35,259 bases of DNA from a virus. The notes under the pieces are model-generated. The model had not been told where the DNA came from. It ran no database searches and saw only the letters and a list, made by a program, of their open reading frames with translations. Positions 1,719 to 35,259 of this stretch are shown piece by piece (the stretch's first letter is position 1; the number at the start of each line of letters is the position of its first letter). The translations under genes were made by a program, and so were the position numbers. The stretch is from IMG/VR virus record IMGVR_UViG_3300040815_000389, positions 1 to 35,259 of that record. One strand, given 5' to 3'.

Positions 1719-4301
1719 CTAAAAACCTGTAAATTGTTGCGATGGTTTAGTCAATAAAAACTCCTGATTGTAGTCTTTCTCCATACGTTTCTCCATTCTT
1801 TTCAATACTCCAGGATTCATAGTCTCCATCATCTGATATCCAATCAGGTAATCAAATGCTGTTTTTGTATAAAACAGATTTAAGAATGGAATATTAGTAG
1901 ATATAGTCTTATATGCTTGTCGTGCTGCTTTGCCACCCTCTCCGGTTACTCCATATTTCATTGCTTGTAATACATCAAATGCACTTAATGGGACTGGGCC
2001 GAGCATACTTGCAGCAATTTCACCACCAGTCCTGGTCTCCTGAAATAACACATCACCATATAAGCCAAGACCACCACCTTGTAATATCGCCGCTAATACT
2101 GTTTTACCTTTTAAAGGGTCTCTTGCAGATCTTCCTTTCAACAAATCTTTTGCTGTCATTGATAAATATCCAAGTAAAGCAGATGTAACAAACAATGAGG
2201 CAACACCACTAATTGCTCTAGCTTTGTTTCCAGCTCTCCAAAACGATGCTTCTCTGGATAATGTTTTGTAGATAATAGACATTGGAAACGCTTTAAATTG
2301 ACCAATAAATCTAATGGCCTCACCCATTGTAGTTCCAGCCATTAGTCCTTGTGTCATAATACCTTTGACTTTAGCATCTGGTTCAATCACAGCATAGGTT
2401 GTTCTATCTAGTAACATGCCGGATACAGATGATTTAAACTTTTCTTTGATAATTCTAATCTCACGCTGACTTGCATTATCTAAACCAGCAATCAATTTAG
2501 CTTGTTGATCTGTAATATTGTCTAAGTTTTTAATACTAATAAACTCTGTACCATCGGCTGCTTTTTCCATAGCCACAGATCGAATAATATTCCATCGTGT
2601 TTTATCAATATTGTATTGACCAAATAAGGTTTTAAGTGGTGCATTTAAGTTATCAAACTCTATACTTTTTTGTTTAGCAAAGTAATTAGCCATACTCAAC
2701 ATAGCACCTTCTTTGAGCGTGTTAGTCCACCAAGACAATAAGTTGTATTTAAAGAATGTACGTTGCACGTTAGTCCATCCTTTAGATAAATTGTCACCTA
2801 CTTGAAATCGACCAGAGATGTCGTAAATAGCACTATCAGCCATGAAGCCTAATGATTCAGCAATCTCTTTTTTGTCTTTACTGTTTTTAATTTTAAATAA
2901 TGAACTCAGAGCTTCAGCCATGCCACCTAAAAATGATCTACCTTGGTATCTCATTTCAGCACCATATTGAGCTAAATCAGATGCAGCACTAATGACAGCA
3001 CCACCAAGCTTTGCTGTACTTGCAACAGCACGTGTAATAGCAGACCACTTAGCAACACCAAAGTTTTCTACTGAATAGACAGTTCCATCAACAATATTCA
3101 TAAACTTTTCATATTGTTTAGCATTAACTTGTCCAGCATCTCTTCCTTCTGCGGCTAATCGAGTTGCTACAGCTTTTCTAATCTTTTCAAAGTTCTGTGC
3201 TGGCTTAGTCCCTAGTGTATCCATAATGCCAATGTTACGTCCAGCTGTTGTAAGGCCAGAAAAGAATGATTCATTCAAGTTACCTACACCAAACATCTCA
3301 TTATATTCAAACCAACTATCAGCATCTTTGAAATGTAATACTCGCTTCATCTGTGCAGACTTTGCTACGTTCTTAGTAGGTCTTGAACCAAATGTAAATT
3401 CAGCACCGTCAGATTTTAGTGAGTCATTTCTAACAAGTGAGTTATATGCAAATAACATAAACTCATCGATGTTATCTGTATCAGCAAAGGTTCTGTCCTT
3501 ATCAAGTTTGTCCATAACAAACTCTTTCCAAGCTGTAAAGTTCTTGTTATAGTTTTGATCATACTTTGCTGCTAGTTTTGGATCAGTAGGAATATCTTGC
3601 TTGCCTAATACATTGGCTGCATCTCGAACTAAATATGGATCATGCGATTGTCTAACCACATAACCCCATAACTTTCCAATATTAGCACCACGATCATTGA
3701 GCTGCTGTCTGACCATCTCAGAGTATTCGTGTAGTATTGTTCCAAGCTTTACAATCTCTGGATTCTTTTCTGATAGTGTTGGTTTGATTCCGGCATCAGC
3801 TTCTGCTTTAGTTGGTTGCTCAGCTAGATCTTTCATTACACGTGTAATTCTTAGTTGAGTATTTCTATCAGCATTAGCAAAGAGTCTTTCTACTCCAGCA
3901 TCACGTAAACGCTTAGGTATACCATTGATTAATTGATTCACAGCAGCATGTTGTTGCACTGCGACTGAGGCCCTAGCACCTTTCTTTTGATCTGTAGATC
4001 CAATAAGAATAGCATTTAATCCTTCTTTAGGATTGTCCCGGAACTCTTCAAACACATACTCAACAAGTTCACGACCTTTGATTTCATCTTCAATAGCATT
4101 ACGTTTGTTAATCTTGCGTTGTAATACAATCTGATCTTGTACAGTTTGTGCTACTTCATCAATGTTAATCTCATCAATTCTGTTTAGCTTTAGTTCAGCT
4201 TGAGCAATCTTAAGCTGATTAAGAATCTCATCTCTCTCAACAAAGCCAATAGACGACTTATCTAGTAACTTCTGAACTCTTATTAAACATTTATCTGCCA
4301 T
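1719..4301 (-). CDS. Large internal virion protein (gp16-like)
   Basis: An 860-residue, mostly helical protein at the distal end of the tail/internal-core block, just before the tail fibre. By position and size it matches the large internal virion (ejection) proteins of T7-like phages, which form the inner core and enter the cell envelope during DNA injection. The first 130 residues are highly charged and helical. Moderately hydrophobic alanine- and glycine-rich stretches occur in the middle (around the KLGGAVISAASDLAQYG segment), and a hydrophobic stretch near residue 700 reads ASLFVTSALLGYL. No lytic transglycosylase motif is visible, unlike T7 gp16. It starts 2 bases after the 403-residue gene, so the two are probably translated together. 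The function is inferred from context. Confidence 0.75.
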   Translation of the reverse strand: MADKCLIRVQKLLDKSSIGFVERDEILNQLKIAQAELKLNRIDEINIDEVAQTVQDQIVLQRKINKRNAIEDEIKGRELVEYVFEEFRDNPKEGLNAILIGSTDQKKGARASVAVQQHAAVNQLINGIPKRLRDAGVERLFANADRNTQLRITRVMKDLAEQPTKAEADAGIKPTLSEKNPEIVKLGTILHEYSEMVRQQLNDRGANIGKLWGYVVRQSHDPYLVRDAANVLGKQDIPTDPKLAAKYDQNYNKNFTAWKEFVMDKLDKDRTFADTDNIDEFMLFAYNSLVRNDSLKSDGAEFTFGSRPTKNVAKSAQMKRVLHFKDADSWFEYNEMFGVGNLNESFFSGLTTAGRNIGIMDTLGTKPAQNFEKIRKAVATRLAAEGRDAGQVNAKQYEKFMNIVDGTVYSVENFGVAKWSAITRAVASTAKLGGAVISAASDLAQYGAEMRYQGRSFLGGMAEALSSLFKIKNSKDKKEIAESLGFMADSAIYDISGRFQVGDNLSKGWTNVQRTFFKYNLLSWWTNTLKEGAMLSMANYFAKQKSIEFDNLNAPLKTLFGQYNIDKTRWNIIRSVAMEKAADGTEFISIKNLDNITDQQAKLIAGLDNASQREIRIIKEKFKSSVSGMLLDRTTYAVIEPDAKVKGIMTQGLMAGTTMGEAIRFIGQFKAFPMSIIYKTLSREASFWRAGNKARAISGVASLFVTSALLGYLSMTAKDLLKGRSARDPLKGKTVLAAILQGGGLGLYGDVLFQETRTGGEIAASMLGPVPLSAFDVLQAMKYGVTGEGGKAARQAYKTISTNIPFLNLFYTKTAFDYLIGYQMMETMNPGVLKRMEKRMEKDYNQEFLLTKPSQQFTGF

Positions 4302-17761: not shown

Positions 17762-18252
17762 TACAATCTCCTCATAATATATGTATCTTCTTTGTCAGCA
17801 CTGTACTGCACCATCACACCTTCTTCAATAAAGCCTAATGCTTTGGCCCACCTAACAGCACGTGTATCATCACATTTTACTGTTATTTGTATACGATGTA
17901 AATTAAATAATATCTTGCAGATATCAAAGAATGCAAATGCACCCTTTGTCATAGCTATGGGGTATCGTCTGGATTCCTCAGCAAAGAGCGACCACGCCTC
18001 ACCCACTCCTTGCCAGTGAAACATAAGACCAAACATAGCGACAGGACGACGATTGACAAACGCAGTAACACAAGGGCCACAGTGAGATTGAAATATAAGA
18101 AACCGTTTTCGATCTTCAATCGTAATTGATTGAGATTCATACTCGATTATTCCTTTAAAATTATCCAGATGTCCTTCGTGAAATGGTAAATAGTATCCAT
18201 TTTCAACATCAGGCATTGCTTGTAATATTTTATCAATATTAGTTAAAAACAT
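17761..18252 (-). CDS. GNAT-fold protein (T7 gp13-like)
   Basis: 163 residues. The pattern of an N-terminal sensor half, CVTAFVNRRPVAMFGLMF as the central strands, and a C-terminal ITVKCDDTRAVRWAKALGFIEEGVMVQY segment is that of the GNAT acetyltransferase fold. The classic acetyl-CoA loop Q/R-x-x-G-x-G/A is not obvious; the nearest sequence RYPIAMTKGAFAFF lacks it, so catalytic activity is doubtful. T7 gp13, needed for virion assembly, has a related fold, and phages of this class carry it beside the terminase. The start overlaps the terminase large subunit stop by 14 bases. Confidence 0.7.
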   Translation of the reverse strand: MFLTNIDKILQAMPDVENGYYLPFHEGHLDNFKGIIEYESQSITIEDRKRFLIFQSHCGPCVTAFVNRRPVAMFGLMFHWQGVGEAWSLFAEESRRYPIAMTKGAFAFFDICKILFNLHRIQITVKCDDTRAVRWAKALGFIEEGVMVQYSADKEDTYIMRRL

Positions 18253-19795
18253 CGAAATCTGCGTTAACCACAGTTTGTGAAATCAAAGTATTTTGTGATA
18301 AGGCGGACTTGGTCATCCGCTTATGTTCTCCGCCACCTAAAAGCAGATAACCAAATGCATCGCCAATATGAGAATGTTCGTTTTTATTAGGGCTGTCTCT
18401 AAATCTTTCTTGACCAGCGCCGACGGCCACACGTTTAAAATGATAACCACCAGCTAAAGATTTACGTAATTTTTTACAAGACGTATGAATTATCAATCCA
18501 GGTTTGCCCGCAATCAGTCTTTGCATTGGGGCAGCAGCCGCTTCGCGTCGCACTTGGAAGTTGTTAGATGGTGTAGGTTGTGCGCGTAAGCCTAGTGTTC
18601 TTAAATAATCAAATGCAGTCACTTCATAGATCGCATCTCGTTGCATACCGGCTGGGTCACCCCACACCAAGATCTGTGCTTTAGGATAACGTGCATTGAT
18701 CTCCGCTAACAGCTGTGTACCAAATCGTTCTAGCCCCATATCTTCAGTCACAATCTCATGCAACAATACCCATCGACCATTAGTTAATCGTTGTCCAATA
18801 GCAGCTGCTGGTGTCAAACCAAAGTCAAGACCAATATGAATGGGTAATGTAGGATCATAATCGACTTCCGCAGAACTCATAGCATTGTCATCATATTCAG
18901 GCCATACCGGTCGACCTTCTTGTACATAAGTAAACTTACCTTCAGCATAACAACGAATCCAGTCTAGGTTCTTCCCACCTAGCATCTGAGCATAGTAACC
19001 TCCAGGTAAGTTGGATACGTTCTCTGCTTTAGAGTTGATTGTCCACCAACGACCACCCGCAAAGATATGATCATTGGCTTCTGGATTATCAGGCAAATGT
19101 TCTGGACTCACCTCAACCACACCACCCGGTTGATGAAAGAAGTCCCAGGCATACTTACCAGTGATCGGTTCCTTTTGACTTAAGCGGAACCACCAATGGT
19201 CGTCATCCATTGGGTTAGTATCCATCCACACTCCATGCCAAGTCGGTCCACCATCCCGTTGTGTAGGATAGCGACCAACCCGATGAGTGAGACCATCAAT
19301 AACAGCTTTTGGAAGTTCTCTTGCTTCATTGACCCATGCTCCTGTTAGTTCTAAGGATAATAGTTTACGTACATCTTTAGGTTGGTCCAACGCTAGGAAG
19401 ATCACTTCACAGTCTATACCCGCAGCATCACCGCGGGACGGGAGGCGAATGTGATGAGTGATTGGAGGTGTATATAGCATCGGACCAAAAGTGTTTTCAG
19501 GAAATAACTCTTGCCATGTCTTAATGGTTGTCGTCTTAAGTTCTGGGTACGAGTTCCTGACAATTACGAAACGAGTATAACGGATCCCATCAATCGGTGA
19601 TGGCTTCTGTCTGACAGCGCGCATCATGATCTCAGCAGCACATGCATAGGACTTACCCGATCCTACCGGACCCATGAGTCCGCGAACAAATGCATTACTC
19701 TGGAGAAATTTATACGTCGTCCGGGCGCTACTAAAATCTAGATCAATGCCTGGACCCGCTAACTCTTTTTTACTACGTTCTTTTTTATTGCTCAT
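18239..19795 (-). CDS. terL: Terminase large subunit
   Basis: 518-residue DNA-packaging motor. Walker A is GPVGSGKS (42-49). The Walker B-like strand with catalytic acid is TGAWVNEA (151-158). DTNP (192-195) fits the coupling motif. The nuclease domain shows GLDFG (322-326), WGDPAG (378-383) and HSHIGDAFGY (474-483), whose aspartates (324, 380, 479) form the RNase H-like metal site. The ATG lies within the end of the 53-residue gene (11-base overlap), so it is translationally coupled. It binds the portal, pumps DNA and cuts the concatemer. Which packaging type (headful or fixed ends) the phage uses cannot be read directly, but a permuted map favours headful. Confidence 0.95.
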   Translation of the reverse strand: MSNKKERSKKELAGPGIDLDFSSARTTYKFLQSNAFVRGLMGPVGSGKSYACAAEIMMRAVRQKPSPIDGIRYTRFVIVRNSYPELKTTTIKTWQELFPENTFGPMLYTPPITHHIRLPSRGDAAGIDCEVIFLALDQPKDVRKLLSLELTGAWVNEARELPKAVIDGLTHRVGRYPTQRDGGPTWHGVWMDTNPMDDDHWWFRLSQKEPITGKYAWDFFHQPGGVVEVSPEHLPDNPEANDHIFAGGRWWTINSKAENVSNLPGGYYAQMLGGKNLDWIRCYAEGKFTYVQEGRPVWPEYDDNAMSSAEVDYDPTLPIHIGLDFGLTPAAAIGQRLTNGRWVLLHEIVTEDMGLERFGTQLLAEINARYPKAQILVWGDPAGMQRDAIYEVTAFDYLRTLGLRAQPTPSNNFQVRREAAAAPMQRLIAGKPGLIIHTSCKKLRKSLAGGYHFKRVAVGAGQERFRDSPNKNEHSHIGDAFGYLLLGGGEHKRMTKSALSQNTLISQTVVNADFDVFN

Positions 19796-21589: not shown

Positions 21590-21857
21590 ACAAGTCTCCT
21601 ACATATTTATTGCGGACCTTTTTCGGACGTCCACGACTCCGTATTTCATTTTCATGTTCTTTGGCTACATCACGCTTACACAACTCAACCATCTTAAGAT
21701 ACTGACTGGCCCCTATCTCCTTCAAGCCATGTCCGTCAAAACCCTTAGTCATTTTCCAGTAGCCACTTGGATCGGTAAACTTGTATTCCAACGGTTTACC
21801 CTCGTTGAACTCATTACACACGAGTTTATAGAATTCACGTAATGTTTTGTAAGACAT
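21582..21857 (-). CDS. Hypothetical protein with AT-hook-like motif
   Basis: 91 residues, not recognised. Residues 1-50 read MSYKTLREFYKLVCNEFNEG, then FTDPSGYWKMTKGFDGHG. The C-terminal third has a long charged helix and then RSRGRPKKVRNK (about 72-83), with the core GRP flanked by basic residues of an AT-hook, a minor-groove DNA-binding element. It follows the methyltransferase with a 23-base overlap, so both may act on DNA. The family is unknown; the AT-hook is a motif-level reading only. Confidence 0.62.
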   Translation of the reverse strand: MSYKTLREFYKLVCNEFNEGKPLEYKFTDPSGYWKMTKGFDGHGLKEIGASQYLKMVELCKRDVAKEHENEIRSRGRPKKVRNKYVGDLYE

Positions 21858-22869
21858 GTTTAATCACCTCAACTGTCCAACCATTACCTAACATCTTATA
21901 TCTTTGTGTATTAGATACACCTTCTGTATAACCATCAGGTACAGTTTGTAATCGTTCACATTCTAATGGTGTTAGTTTTCTGTAATACATTTTATCTTGA
22001 GTTAAGACATTATCTTTTTGTACAGATGTTAATGTGTTTGTTTTATTGTCTTCACGCAACTCTAACATTTGTGTATATTCTTTTGAACCAGGCGTAATTT
22101 GTCTTCCACGCAATGCACCGCATGCTATTTTAGGTTGACGATTGCCACCATTCATGGAGTTTAATGTAGGGGCTTTACCTTCAGAACTATAGATTCTTTT
22201 TAATATATCATGTCCATTAATATCATTAGCCATACCCACTTGTACCATAGTACGTTGTCTTTTTTCAATACTATTCCAAGCTACTGCGCCTTGGTATCTT
22301 GCCGTTAAACAAAAAGATTTTTTATCAGATGTAGTCATCTCATCTGTCGCAATACCATTTTCTAATATGTCTTTTAATACAATATCACGATCTTCAGGTT
22401 GGGTAATGTTAGGTATATTGGTCCAGTACAATCGCACTCGATTCTGTGCAGAGACTAATGCACTGTTAATCATAATCGGTTCAACACCGAGATGTTCTGT
22501 AATGACATCCTGATATTCTTTCTTCATCCGAACATTCTCTAGTAGAAAGTATTTAGGATTACATTCTTTTAACAGTCTAACAAACTCAAAGAATAATGCA
22601 GACCTTGGATCGTTAAAGTTTAACTGTTTACCCGCAAAACTAAATCCTTGACAAGGACTACCCCCTAAGAGTAAATCAATTTTTTCTAAATCCTCACCTT
22701 TAACTTTAGTGACATCACCTAGATGTATAGTCTCTGGAAAGTTATTCTGTGTCACACGCATTGCATAAGGATCTATTTCTGCTGCATAATAGTTATCCAC
22801 AGGTATACCTAACTGATCTAAAGCTATTTGACCACAACTCATTCCGTCGAACAGGCTTAATACATTCAT
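21835..22869 (-). CDS. DNA C5-cytosine methyltransferase
   Basis: 344 residues. Motif I is FDGMSCGQIAL (7-17), motif IV GGSPCQGFSFAG (69-80) with nucleophile C73, motif VI ENV (111-113), motif VIII QNRVRLYW (142-149), motif IX/X LECERLQTVPDGYT and YKMLGNGWTVEVI at the end. The target-recognition region between 150 and 300 is unlike any I recognise. No restriction gene is next to it, so it is a solitary enzyme, probably protecting phage DNA from host restriction or marking it. It lies near the start of the leftward arm. The stop of the 30-residue gene overlaps its ATG by 4 bases (TGAATG region). Confidence 0.92.
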   Translation of the reverse strand: MNVLSLFDGMSCGQIALDQLGIPVDNYYAAEIDPYAMRVTQNNFPETIHLGDVTKVKGEDLEKIDLLLGGSPCQGFSFAGKQLNFNDPRSALFFEFVRLLKECNPKYFLLENVRMKKEYQDVITEHLGVEPIMINSALVSAQNRVRLYWTNIPNITQPEDRDIVLKDILENGIATDEMTTSDKKSFCLTARYQGAVAWNSIEKRQRTMVQVGMANDINGHDILKRIYSSEGKAPTLNSMNGGNRQPKIACGALRGRQITPGSKEYTQMLELREDNKTNTLTSVQKDNVLTQDKMYYRKLTPLECERLQTVPDGYTEGVSNTQRYKMLGNGWTVEVIKHVLQNIT

Positions 22870-28709: not shown

Positions 28710-29486
28710 ATGAACAAGTACAATATATTTTTTGAATTAGAAACAGCAATGTCTGAAGTGGAAGCAAATACAGTAGAAGAAGCTTATGAGATTGCAATGA
28801 AGACATTACCCAGTGTTGTACAAAACAAGTTTAAAATGATTAATATCGAGAGCAAACTGCTTAAGATTAATGGTAGTGATCCGTTTGATGGTATTAGTTA
28901 TTCTTATGAACAAGAAAACAAATGGCATGATTGGCTCAACACATTTGAGCCTGGTTACAGTGTAAAAACATACATTGAACAACATCTTGGGCGTGAATTG
29001 ATTGGTACTAAATACAGTGAATACTCTCACAATCATCGAAATAAAAATGTTGATTGGGACAATAACAATATGTCATGGTGTGAGCATTGTGATTTAATTC
29101 TAGATGATTCTAAAGTATATGGTTGGGGTGATAAAAAATTATTCAATCTATATAAATCACGTGGAATGAGTGATCACAATGCAGAGTTTATGACAGAACA
29201 AGCAATAGGTAATGAATTTATCTGTGAAGATTGTTTTAATAAGCTTGAACATATTAAACCAGATCTACCATACAATGATGAGGACAAGGATCATTATATT
29301 TCTTTACTCACTGAGGAAGAAAAGGAACGATACTTTGATGAGGAATACTTTAAACAGAAAGAGTTAAAAAAAGAAGAAGAAAGAAAGGAAGCAATTAGAA
29401 AAGCAAATGAAGAGCAAGATCAGATGTATGCTCGAATGAATAGCTTAGCAATGTATAGTATTTTTCCTGAGAAGAAGGGGTCATAG
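28710..29486 (+). CDS. Hypothetical protein with two CxxC pairs (258 aa)
   Basis: 258 residues from ATG at 28710 after AAAGGAG. Residues 1-70 form an alpha/beta domain (MNKYNIFFELETAMSEVEAN, TVEEAYEIAMKTLP). The centre has WCEHCDLIL (about 125) and FICEDCFNKLE (about 170), two CxxC pairs that could hold one zinc. The last 60 residues are a charged coiled coil (KEEERKEAIRKANEEQDQM). No family recognised; the zinc-ribbon idea is from spacing only. It is the last rightward gene, and its stop codon is in the loop of the terminator. Confidence 0.65.
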   Translation: MNKYNIFFELETAMSEVEANTVEEAYEIAMKTLPSVVQNKFKMINIESKLLKINGSDPFDGISYSYEQENKWHDWLNTFEPGYSVKTYIEQHLGRELIGTKYSEYSHNHRNKNVDWDNNNMSWCEHCDLILDDSKVYGWGDKKLFNLYKSRGMSDHNAEFMTEQAIGNEFICEDCFNKLEHIKPDLPYNDEDKDHYISLLTEEEKERYFDEEYFKQKELKKEEERKEAIRKANEEQDQMYARMNSLAMYSIFPEKKGS

Positions 29487-29500
29487 ACCCCTTTTCTTTT
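29475..29500. terminator. Convergent terminator between the two arms
   Basis: AAGGGGTC (29475-29482) and GACCCCTT (29486-29493) form an 8-bp stem with the three-base loop ATA. The rightward side has TTCTTTT and ends the 258-residue gene, whose TAG starts in the loop; the leftward side ends just after the pqqA stop (29499) with a less regular T-run. It probably works mainly rightward but may stop both arms. Confidence 0.75.
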
Positions 29501-29570
29501 ACTTGTTACAAACGTACATTGTTACTTCAAAACCGAAACGCATTTCAGTTGCTGCTGGTTTAGTCCACAT
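29499..29570 (-). CDS. pqqA: PQQ precursor peptide PqqA
   Basis: A 23-residue gene with a strong AAGGAG site 6 bases before ATG (29570). The peptide begins MWTKPA, then [12 protein letters not shown], and ends VCNK. The core F-E-V-T-M-Y holds the Glu (15) and Tyr (19) which, three residues apart, are linked by PqqE and become the skeleton of pyrroloquinoline quinone; MWTKPA and RFGFEVTMY match PqqA peptides from many proteobacteria. No other pqq gene is in the window, so the host must supply PqqB, C, D and E. It is the last gene of the leftward arm. It would raise precursor supply in an infected PQQ-making host. Certainty is high for family, moderate for effect. Confidence 0.88.
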
Positions 29571-29752
29571 AATAGTCTCCTTATTAATTGAATCTTCATT
29601 ATGCACCTGTAATACATGTAATACAGCTGTAAAAACCACGATATATGGCTACGGCTTTCCATGAGAATCACTGTTAAACGATCGTTATTTTCTGATAGGT
29701 TACCCTAGGTTGACATGAGATCGTGCAATACAGAGCGATTGTGGAGGTTGTT
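29571..29752. other. Non-coding region upstream of pqqA with direct repeats
   Basis: 182 bases between the 74-residue gene and pqqA. It holds a perfect tandem 9-mer TGTAATACA (29608-29616 and 29617-29625) and AT-rich flanks. I see no clear promoter on the minus strand. The repeats may be operator-like, and the long gap suggests pqqA has its own control. Confidence 0.5.
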
Positions 29753-29977
29753 TTAGTGGGTGACCTTAGGTTTTTCGTTGACAATGTACATATCGAGACC
29801 TTCAGCATGCAAAAGTATAAAATCTGAGTCCTCGTCTTCAGAGAACATGATCTTCACCATAGATTGGTCACCATCTTCCAGGATTTCTATGTTCCAGATC
29901 TTTTTACCGATGACTGAATCAACAGCTTCAGCTTGTTGAGCATCGAGTTCTGATATTACACTATTGTTTTCGTCCAT
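29753..29977 (-). CDS. Hypothetical small acidic protein (74 aa)
   Basis: 74 residues, strongly acidic. After ISELDAQQAEAVDSVIGKKIWNIEILED comes a beta-like part MVKIMFSEDEDSDFILLHAEGLDMYIVNE. It could be a small beta-barrel or a DNA mimic by charge, but neither is shown. It overlaps the phosphoesterase gene by 22 bases. No family recognised. Confidence 0.6.
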   Translation of the reverse strand: MDENNSVISELDAQQAEAVDSVIGKKIWNIEILEDGDQSMVKIMFSEDEDSDFILLHAEGLDMYIVNEKPKVTH

Positions 29978-30660
29978 CGTCCACCATCCTTGAGTACCAT
30001 TGGCATGAGTTTAGGTTGTCCTTCTATGATCATACCACAACCGATGATGAAACGTGACTTAAAATTCTTAGCATATTCAAATGCAAGTTCTTTTTGATTA
30101 ATTAGACATCCAGTTTGCATACCCCAAACCAGCTTGTCCGGATTAGAATAGTATTCAATCTTAAACTTAGAATGATAATGGCCCTGGACTGTATTCATAC
30201 CATACTGCTGAGCAACCTTCATTACATCAGCCGACATGCCATGGGTAAAGAAACATTTGTTACCATCTGACAAGGTAACCTTAAGGTCATCTACCCATTG
30301 CCATCCGGGACCCACATGCAAGAATTCATTGTATGACTTCAGGTACTCCAGGCTTAAGCCATGGGCCACAGCTCGACGATACACTAAAGATGAATGGTTT
30401 GAATGTACCAAGGTCATCTTAGGAAAAATTTTCTGTAAGTCTTGAGCATACATTCTTGCTGCTTTCAGCTCATCTCCCGGGGACTTCAGGTCTGGGTGAT
30501 GATTATGAAAACTGATTGAGTGCTGGTCGATCTCATCTCCGATGTTGACCACGAGGTCAGGTTTATATTTCTTCTTTAGTTCAGATAGAAAATCAAAAGC
30601 ATCAGGATGATGGTATGGAATGTGTAAGTCTGATATAACTAACACTGACTTGTACTTCAT
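29956..30660 (-). CDS. Metallophosphoesterase
   Basis: 234 residues. The calcineurin-like fold motifs are in order: SDLH (10-13), GDEID (41-45), SNHSS (87-91, in place of GNHD/E), FTHG (138-141) and GHYH (160-163). D11, H13, D42, N88, H140, H161 and H163 can form the two-metal site. It may cleave phosphodiesters in DNA, cyclic nucleotides or other substrates; phage versions are often near recombination or lysis genes. Motif three is altered but keeps the Asn and His. Substrate unknown. Confidence 0.88.
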   Translation of the reverse strand: MKYKSVLVISDLHIPYHHPDAFDFLSELKKKYKPDLVVNIGDEIDQHSISFHNHHPDLKSPGDELKAARMYAQDLQKIFPKMTLVHSNHSSLVYRRAVAHGLSLEYLKSYNEFLHVGPGWQWVDDLKVTLSDGNKCFFTHGMSADVMKVAQQYGMNTVQGHYHSKFKIEYYSNPDKLVWGMQTGCLINQKELAFEYAKNFKSRFIIGCGMIIEGQPKLMPMVLKDGGRWTKTIV

Positions 30661-33439: not shown

Positions 33440-35259
33440 TTAATCCTTAGTTGCTGTTATAACATCTAAATATTTTACAGCTAAATCAATTGTATCACTA
33501 CCTGTAAATGTGTGATTGTGAGCTGTGCCTGTAAAGCCGTGGCTATGCGCTCCACCACCGCCTGTAGCATTCGTTGTTTTGTTGGTTGTTGGACTTGCTC
33601 TATTCTCTTTAGCATAAGATTGTGTACCACCTGATTTTGTTGTAGCACCATCCCATGGTCCAGTTAATGTATGAGTGTGGCTTGGAATGTTAGCAGTAGC
33701 TAGTGTGTGGTTAGCCACTGTACCACCAGCTGTAGTATTGTCTGTTGTACCTGATACGCTCACTGCTTGACTCACAAATGCTGAAGTAAAGTCTACTGTA
33801 CCACCTGTGCTTGCTGTGCCTGTGGTGACTCTTAATGCATGGTTGTCATAATTCGTTGTGTCTTTAGTCCATCCTGTTGGTGCAGTATTCTGTGCAAACA
33901 ACATTCGAGTGCCACTACTAAATGATACGACATCTGCCCATGACATTGTGCCATCACCATCAGATGCTAAGAACTGACCAGCAGTACCATTGCCTGATAC
34001 ATTAATTTGTGTAGCACCAATGCCATTATCTTTAACAGCAAACTGTGTGCCTGTGAGTTCTAAGGTAACTGCATCTGCTGAGTATAATGTTGCACCAGAG
34101 ACTTGACTCCAGGACTGTCCTGTAAAGTCAGTTGTATCATAGTTAGATTGTATCCAGCCTGATGCGCCATACGTTGTTCCTTCTAATACAAATAACTTAG
34201 CCCCTTGTAGTTCTGTATAAACATCACCATCCGTTGATCTTGATAATGTATAGTTTGCACCATCATCACCATAGACATAGATACCATTCTCAGAATCTGT
34301 AGATTGTCCTGTAAGTAATAATCTATAGCCAGCATCTGCTGTTACTAATGCAGCATGACCATCAATCACTAATGTGCCTGTTGTGCCAGTGAGGGAGATG
34401 TTGCTATCAGCATGTAGGTTGACTGCTTCTTTCCATTGTAATCCTGTAATAGCTGTATCAACATACGCTTTAGTTGCTACATCACTATCTGATGTTGGGG
34501 TTGACATACCTGTGACTGAACCACCAGTAATTGCTACACTGTTGGCATTTTGTGTAGCCATTGTGCCAGCACTTGCATTGTCAAATGGTGTATATGTTAA
34601 TGCGCCTGTAACATCGGCAGATGATAATGTCACTGCACCAGTTCTAGTATTGAATGATGTAACTAATCCACTTGCAGAGAATGCAGCTGCATCCCATGCA
34701 GATCCATCCCATATATATAATTGATCTACAGTAGTATTAAAATATAAGTCCCCTGTTTGTAATGCACTACTATCTTTTCTTGTGCTTGGAGCAGAAGCTG
34801 ATGGGCCATAATATACACCAGCAAAGTTACTTACATCTGTCACATTGTCTGCAACTGTTGTTACGTCCGTGCTAATACCAGCCACTGTGGTGACATCAGT
34901 TGATATTCCAGCCACTGTTGTGACGCTTGCATTGTTAGCAGCAACAGTATTTACATCAGATGAGATACCACCCACTGTAGTTACATCACTGCTAATTCCA
35001 GCTAAGGTAGTAATGTTCGCATCATTACCAGCGACAGTATTCACATTAGCAATGTTACCACCGACATTGTTTACGTTAGTAATGTTAGTAGCTACTGTGC
35101 CAATGTCTGCTTGATCTGCTACGACAGCAGTGACATCAGAACTAATACCAGCAACTGTAGTGACGTTAGCTGAGATGCCAGATACTGTAGTCACATCAGA
35201 GCTTATGCCAGCCACTGTGCCAATGTCTGTGCCATCAGCTGCCACTGTTGATACATCTG
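33440..35259 (-). CDS. Tail fibre protein, C-terminal part (runs off right edge)
   Basis: The same tail fibre gene as at 1-1653 after circle closure. The frame is open to the right edge; the GTG at 35245 is inside the repeats, not a real start. In order: decapeptide repeats (VTTVAGISTD type) to about 34840, an adhesin-like GDLYFNTTVDQLYIWDGSAW segment, several beta-rich repeats, and from about 33920 a C-terminal collar-like domain (PTGWTKDT, IPSHTHTLTGP, GAHSHGF, AHNHTF). The His-x-His pairs can hold metal in a trimer, as in short fibres such as T4 gp12. This end should bind the host receptor. Confidence 0.9.
   Translation of the reverse strand, partial: DVSTVAADGTDIGTVAGISSDVTTVSGISANVTTVAGISSDVTAVVADQADIGTVATNITNVNNVGGNIANVNTVAGNDANITTLAGISSDVTTVGGISSDVNTVAANNASVTTVAGISTDVTTVAGISTDVTTVADNVTDVSNFAGVYYGPSASAPSTRKDSSALQTGDLYFNTTVDQLYIWDGSAWDAAAFSASGLVTSFNTRTGAVTLSSADVTGALTYTPFDNASAGTMATQNANSVAITGGSVTGMSTPTSDSDVATKAYVDTAITGLQWKEAVNLHADSNISLTGTTGTLVIDGHAALVTADAGYRLLLTGQSTDSENGIYVYGDDGANYTLSRSTDGDVYTELQGAKLFVLEGTTYGASGWIQSNYDTTDFTGQSWSQVSGATLYSADAVTLELTGTQFAVKDNGIGATQINVSGNGTAGQFLASDGDGTMSWADVVSFSSGTRMLFAQNTAPTGWTKDTTNYDNHALRVTTGTASTGGTVDFTSAFVSQAVSVSGTTDNTTAGGTVANHTLATANIPSHTHTLTGPWDGATTKSGGTQSYAKENRASPTTNKTTNATGGGGAHSHGFTGTAHNHTFTGSDTIDLAVKYLDVITATKD
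34523..35259. repeat. Right copy of 737-base terminal overlap
   Basis: Partner of bases 1-737; gap-free, with about 39 mismatches counted by eye. The two copies are equivalent segments of one tail-fibre gene, so the unit genome is 34,522 bases if they are merged. Confidence 0.9.

Follow-up and report, generated by a model that had tools for sequence, protein, structure and literature searches.

A stand-alone pqqA gene as a probable auxiliary metabolic gene of a Methylophilaceae podovirus

Pyrroloquinoline quinone (PQQ) is made from PqqA, a ribosomally made peptide in which the radical SAM enzyme PqqE, together with PqqD, links a Glu to a Tyr. The joined pair is then excised and oxidised to PQQ, one peptide being spent per cofactor. 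Among the closest described systems is the Lake Baikal Methylophilaceae virus VP_266, in which a phage-encoded PqqA was proposed as an auxiliary metabolic gene (PMC7678222), and pqqA is among the virus-encoded genes listed for reservoir sediments (PMC13188868). In the publications describing Melnitz, MEP301, and MEP401/402, pqqA goes unmentioned, and the word pyrroloquinoline did not turn up when the Venkman paper was searched for it. No report of pqqA in cultured methylophages, or of so wide a distribution, was found in a literature search that was short on subscription papers, and an earlier mention is possible. Since methylophage PqqA had already been reported from Lake Baikal, the gene described here adds a member to a known kind, and what is new is its broad distribution.

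In the hosts, surplus pqqA copies have been published for Methylophilaceae (PMC4109929), and in a cultured OM43 strain no transcript was more abundant than that of the methanol dehydrogenase xoxF (PMC5120137). We found pqqA in all Methylophilaceae genomes (121/121, 1–12 copies each), mostly as 2–3 copies in genomes of 1.2–1.4 Mb, and pqqC was single in 9/9 host genomes examined. The many pqqA copies against one pqqC, the published surplus, and the abundance of the xoxF transcript suggest that PqqA supply matters in these host cells. The Methylophilaceae genomes G002 (LSUCC0135) and G071 were noted for their pqqA copies, and twelve copies were present in one genome. For the host strain H5P1, on which Venkman and Melnitz are grown, the published medium is supplied with 1 nM PQQ (PMC9004378), an amount that might hide an effect of infection on PQQ.

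The window analyzed here is the whole 35,259-nt stretch of the IMG/VR record IMGVR_UViG_3300040815_000389. Its phage genes include TerL, portal, capsid, nozzle, capsid assembly, holin, SprT-like, ERF, YqaJ, and RusA. A C-5 cytosine DNA methyltransferase (PF00145) is encoded at 21835–22869 and possibly protects the phage from host restriction. The window ends (1–737 and 34522–35259) overlap by 737 nt at 94.7% identity inside a repetitive tail fibre gene, the end being an imperfect assembly overlap. Because the two ends overlap, the record nearly spans a complete genome of about 34.5 kb; the genome of Methylophilales phage MEP301 has 34,774 nt. The structural genes, the genome-length ends, and nine isolates with the gene place pqqA in a genuine phage genome and not in a host fragment. 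The features of the locus were as follows:

18239–19795, minus strand, terminase large subunit (TerL), 88% identical to that of OM43 phage MEP301; marks lineage and host group
28716–29486, plus strand, convergent neighbour, 256-aa ORF with no assigned function; context only
29473–29495, unstranded, hairpin where the convergent genes meet, terminator-like on the plus strand
29499–29570, minus strand, pqqA, 23-aa PQQ precursor peptide; from family matches and translation
29576–29582, minus strand, ribosome binding site AAGGAGA; read from the sequence
29598–29603, minus strand, putative -10 hexamer CATAAT; by inspection
29607–29626, minus strand, operator-like dyad CTGTATTACATGTATTACAG of two tandem TGTATTACA units; the sole such site in the window, and associated with pqqA across many methylophages
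29753–29977, minus strand, upstream neighbour, 74-aa ORF without family match; context only
29956–30660, minus strand, metallophosphoesterase; context only

The ORF of 23 codons and 72 bases that encodes PqqA runs from 29570 to 29499 on the minus strand, and the plus-strand reading of 29499–29570 gave no PqqA. The window peptide matched Pfam PF08042 (E 6.3e-11, 42.4 bits, cut-off 21.1) and the NCBIfam equivalog TIGR02107 (E 5.8e-12, 45.1 bits, cut-off 20), the latter model being covered in full (positions 1–21 of 21). As a six-frame search of the whole record found PqqA at one place only (E 2.4e-11), chance is excluded for this call. The Glu-x3-Tyr pair corresponds to E15 and Y19 and aligned perfectly to PqqA. 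The ribosome site (29582–29576) lies 5 nt upstream of the pqqA ATG. The gene is the final minus-strand gene before the junction with convergent plus-strand genes, and the junction hairpin (29473–29495) possibly forms the 3' end of the pqqA mRNA on the minus strand. Judged from its sequence, the window ORF is unambiguously an intact PqqA. The preliminary description had placed a PqqA gene with a strong ribosome site at exactly these coordinates, giving no strand; the matches above both cut-offs and the position of AAGGAGA agree with it, and the strand is minus.

Its further claim that pqqA stands alone also held, as a Pfam scan of 29 other ORFs of the window detected neither a further pqq gene nor a quinoprotein dehydrogenase. 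The absence of other pqq genes is probably real, since the window is close to genome length. The host had been proposed to be a PQQ-producing proteobacterium and could be narrowed: an assignment to Methylophilaceae, to OM43-like methylotrophs, is supported by the identity of TerL to that of MEP301, a podovirus of OM43 methylotrophs, and by that of the peptide to Methylophilaceae PqqA copies (up to 96%). The closest non-methylotroph relative, Pelagibacter phage Hodr, was missing from the PqqA hits; with matches restricted to phages of methylotrophs, this indicates that pqqA tracks the host.

Compared with the Methylophilaceae type of the PqqA family (PF08042/TIGR02107), the window peptide is alike in its full length of 23 aa, its Glu-x3-Tyr, and its signature ending [CM]N[KR]; it differs in being phage-borne and alone, and in having an upstream element that had no counterpart in the host sequences searched. 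The dispersed chromosomal pqqA genes of Methylophilaceae (PMC4109929) are likewise extras beyond the single pqqBCDE set and have a strong ribosome site, whereas their upstream regions are unlike those of the phages, and searches of host sequences gave no copy of the phage dyad. VP_266 shares with the window a PqqA encoded in a predicted Methylophilaceae virus. However, VP_266 is T4-like and also encodes methanol dehydrogenase, while the window belongs to a podovirus with pqqA only, and the Baikal-type set of PqqA plus methanol dehydrogenase is thus absent from its scanned ORFs. In MEP301 (MW452941), an unannotated PqqA was located at 3316–3384, in line with the expectation that related phages would carry the gene. 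There, gp06 and gp07 flank pqqA, which is on the opposite strand, in contrast to its position at a convergent junction in the window. Between the two genomes, pqqA and its ribosome site form an island of similarity (83.5% over 85 nt) with different neighbours. The MEP301 record (MW452941.1) names the host FZCC2181, and the paper (PMC8024684) names strain HTCC2181.

The distribution in phages was surveyed by tblastn of the 23 window residues against 50,697 phage records. Nine isolated Methylophilales phages, belonging to several lineages, matched (Venkman, P19250A, MEP301, MEP401, MEP402, and four Melnitz phages), where nine of nine counts the methylophage isolates that surfaced in the searches. 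Further matches were ctXG6705, an uncultured podovirus, and two contigs recorded under Acinetobacter phage, one of which was examined. This contig (CAKLQF020000010.1, 105210–111263), entered under the name Acinetobacter phage MD-2021a, was not accepted as evidence for another host: its annotated surroundings are a bacterial ppk-pqqABCDE region, and a bacterial contig has probably been misassigned here. With a Pseudomonas PqqA query, the same records were recovered and no further genuine phage among the 50,697, and a Methylobacterium-type query matched no phage; both query peptides, and a generic composite PqqA-like sequence included in one alignment, were used only for widening the searches. 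A gene of 72 bases had been expected to escape gene callers easily, and a PqqA annotation is indeed absent from all ten phage records carrying pqqA. In Melnitz and ctXG6705, an annotated ORF on the opposite strand covers the gene; these hypothetical proteins (L008 2961–3056; L007 2067–2195) are probably spurious. PHROGs returned no family for the window pqqA.

In IMG/VR, at least 585 contigs encode PqqA. A PQQ alcohol dehydrogenase was detected in only one of the 43 pqqA-bearing contigs tested (42/43 without), so the peptide alone is the usual arrangement. The 72-kb contig IMGVR_UViG_3300025120_009955 carries both pqqA and a PQQ-dependent alcohol dehydrogenase and resembles the Lake Baikal methylophages.

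For an unbiased denominator, records were gathered by terminase and not by PqqA. Window-like records of at least 30 kb had exactly one PqqA each (6/6), and the 13 shorter ones had one PqqA between them. Among records of at least 28 kb in other lineages, the gene was found in 3/4 Venkman-like, 5/11 P19250A-like, and 1/6 MEP401-like records (9/21 in total). Across the four lineages, 12/27 near-length records, some of which may be incomplete, were without pqqA. Universality among methylophages was therefore rejected on the carriage by lineage, and, the gene not being fixed, any benefit would be limited to some settings. In a pqqA-less Venkman-like record, the terminator of the preceding gene runs straight into the ribosome site of the following gene; at the same site, Venkman has about 165 nt extra, holding pqqA and its leader. 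From the lineage counts and this empty site, pqqA is an accessory cassette, frequent but not universal. An initial clustering of neighbours was discarded, as contigs were joined too loosely and spurious ORFs overlapping pqqA were counted.

Selection was assessed on 120 matches from an IMG/VR scan with a pattern covering codons 1–13 only. Glu15, Tyr19, and the length of 23 aa were kept in 120/120 of these sequences selected by the N-terminal part. For 109 distinct nucleotide sequences, dN/dS was 0.019 in codons 14–23, which lie outside the pattern, and 0.058 over the whole gene, a value affected by the search pattern; synonymous sites were near-saturated across the phage sequences. By these substitution patterns, the peptide is under strong, long-term purifying selection. 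Host peptides are near identical to it, and pqqA is thus the counterpart of a host metabolic gene that selection has preserved intact.

The window pqqA is preceded, 37 nt before its ATG, by a dyad made up of two TGTAWTACA units in tandem. A TATAAT-like hexamer follows the dyad after 3–4 nt in several phages, and the dyad is read as a putative operator overlapping a promoter; a consensus promoter scan listed no promoter. In about 2.0 Mb of phage loci, the dyad occurred 27 times, 20 of them 25–47 nt upstream of pqqA and six just downstream, a raw linkage that is biased because the loci were fetched mostly around pqqA and include some duplicates. From the hosts, pqqA loci totalling 0.96 Mb and five genomes were searched, and none was found. 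Among whole window-like records, the dyad stood beside pqqA in the window, G122, G125, G126, and G127, it was unlinked to pqqA in G124, and G123 had only a weak, unlinked dyad. Upstream of phage pqqA, inverted repeats in general scored only mildly above shuffles (mean 6.5 vs 5.4), and the claim is therefore limited to the specific TGTAWTACA dyad. A GATTAAC leader was a minor feature (11/158 phage vs 0/112 host upstream regions).

The best explanation, with a probability of roughly three in four (0.77), is that the intact, host-derived pqqA is an auxiliary metabolic gene of a Methylophilaceae podovirus and supplies precursor for host PQQ synthesis. Extra peptide would be made from a small cassette consisting of a promoter region with the phage-specific dyad, the strong ribosome site, the 23 codons, and the hairpin. 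Host PqqD and PqqE would cross-link Glu15 and Tyr19, and the other host Pqq enzymes would complete PQQ. Because each PQQ uses up one PqqA, the phage would add substrate and leave the enzymes to the host. PQQ production could in this way be sustained by the phage peptide after host mRNA or transcription falls, and methanol dehydrogenase, the main energy source of the host, would stay charged with cofactor. The relevant quinoprotein is most likely this enzyme (XoxF/MxaF). What we infer is that the gene is expressed during infection, that host enzymes process the peptide, and that the phage benefits. As pqqA was present in every methylophage isolate that surfaced, this is probably a common means of sustaining host methanol oxidation during infection.

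Counted against a benefit is that hosts already have several pqqA copies. These copies are also available as donors if pqqA is a near-neutral, moron-like cassette, carried because a small unit passes easily between host and phage and having little effect on infection. The clean presence and absence, as in the empty Venkman-like site, and the different positions of pqqA in the window and MEP301 would fit such a cassette. Its presence in nine isolates and in all six long window-like records speaks against this, as do the dN/dS of about 0.02–0.06 and the intact reactive residues in 120/120, which mean long-term selection, and we consider near-neutral carriage unlikely. The invariance of these residues also bears on a role as decoy or inhibitor, in which phage PqqA would occupy PqqD/PqqE and lower host PQQ or redirect metabolism. 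The recognition part of the peptide is retained, and excess substrate could conceivably saturate a small PqqE pool; yet a decoy could dispense with Glu15 and Tyr19, which never varied in sequences chosen without regard to them, and this role is very improbable. Extra PQQ might instead serve redox protection, be exported as a shared good, or act in signalling. Against such non-methanol roles, which appear somewhat less probable than near-neutral carriage, pqqA was confined to phages of methylotrophs in the records searched, and a PQQ alcohol or methanol dehydrogenase is carried along with it by the Baikal methylophages (PMC7678222) and by one contig found here.

Beyond provision of PQQ precursor by this podovirus, a wider proposal has about even chances of being correct: that enzyme-free supply of a consumable peptide substrate is a widespread, and usually the sole, methylotrophy-specific auxiliary function of methylophages, encoded by a mobile cassette of about 165 nt with, in some phages, its own phage-specific operator. 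For surveys of auxiliary metabolic genes, genes of fewer than 30 codons are a blind spot. If the proposal is true, pqqA would serve as an inexpensive genomic marker by which methylophages could be recognised, and it would exemplify auxiliary genes that provide a substrate instead of an enzyme. Phages of abundant marine and freshwater methylotrophs would then often boost the cofactor of methanol oxidation by means of a 72-base gene, giving a link between viral infection and methanol turnover that would be testable in phage-host pairs already in culture.
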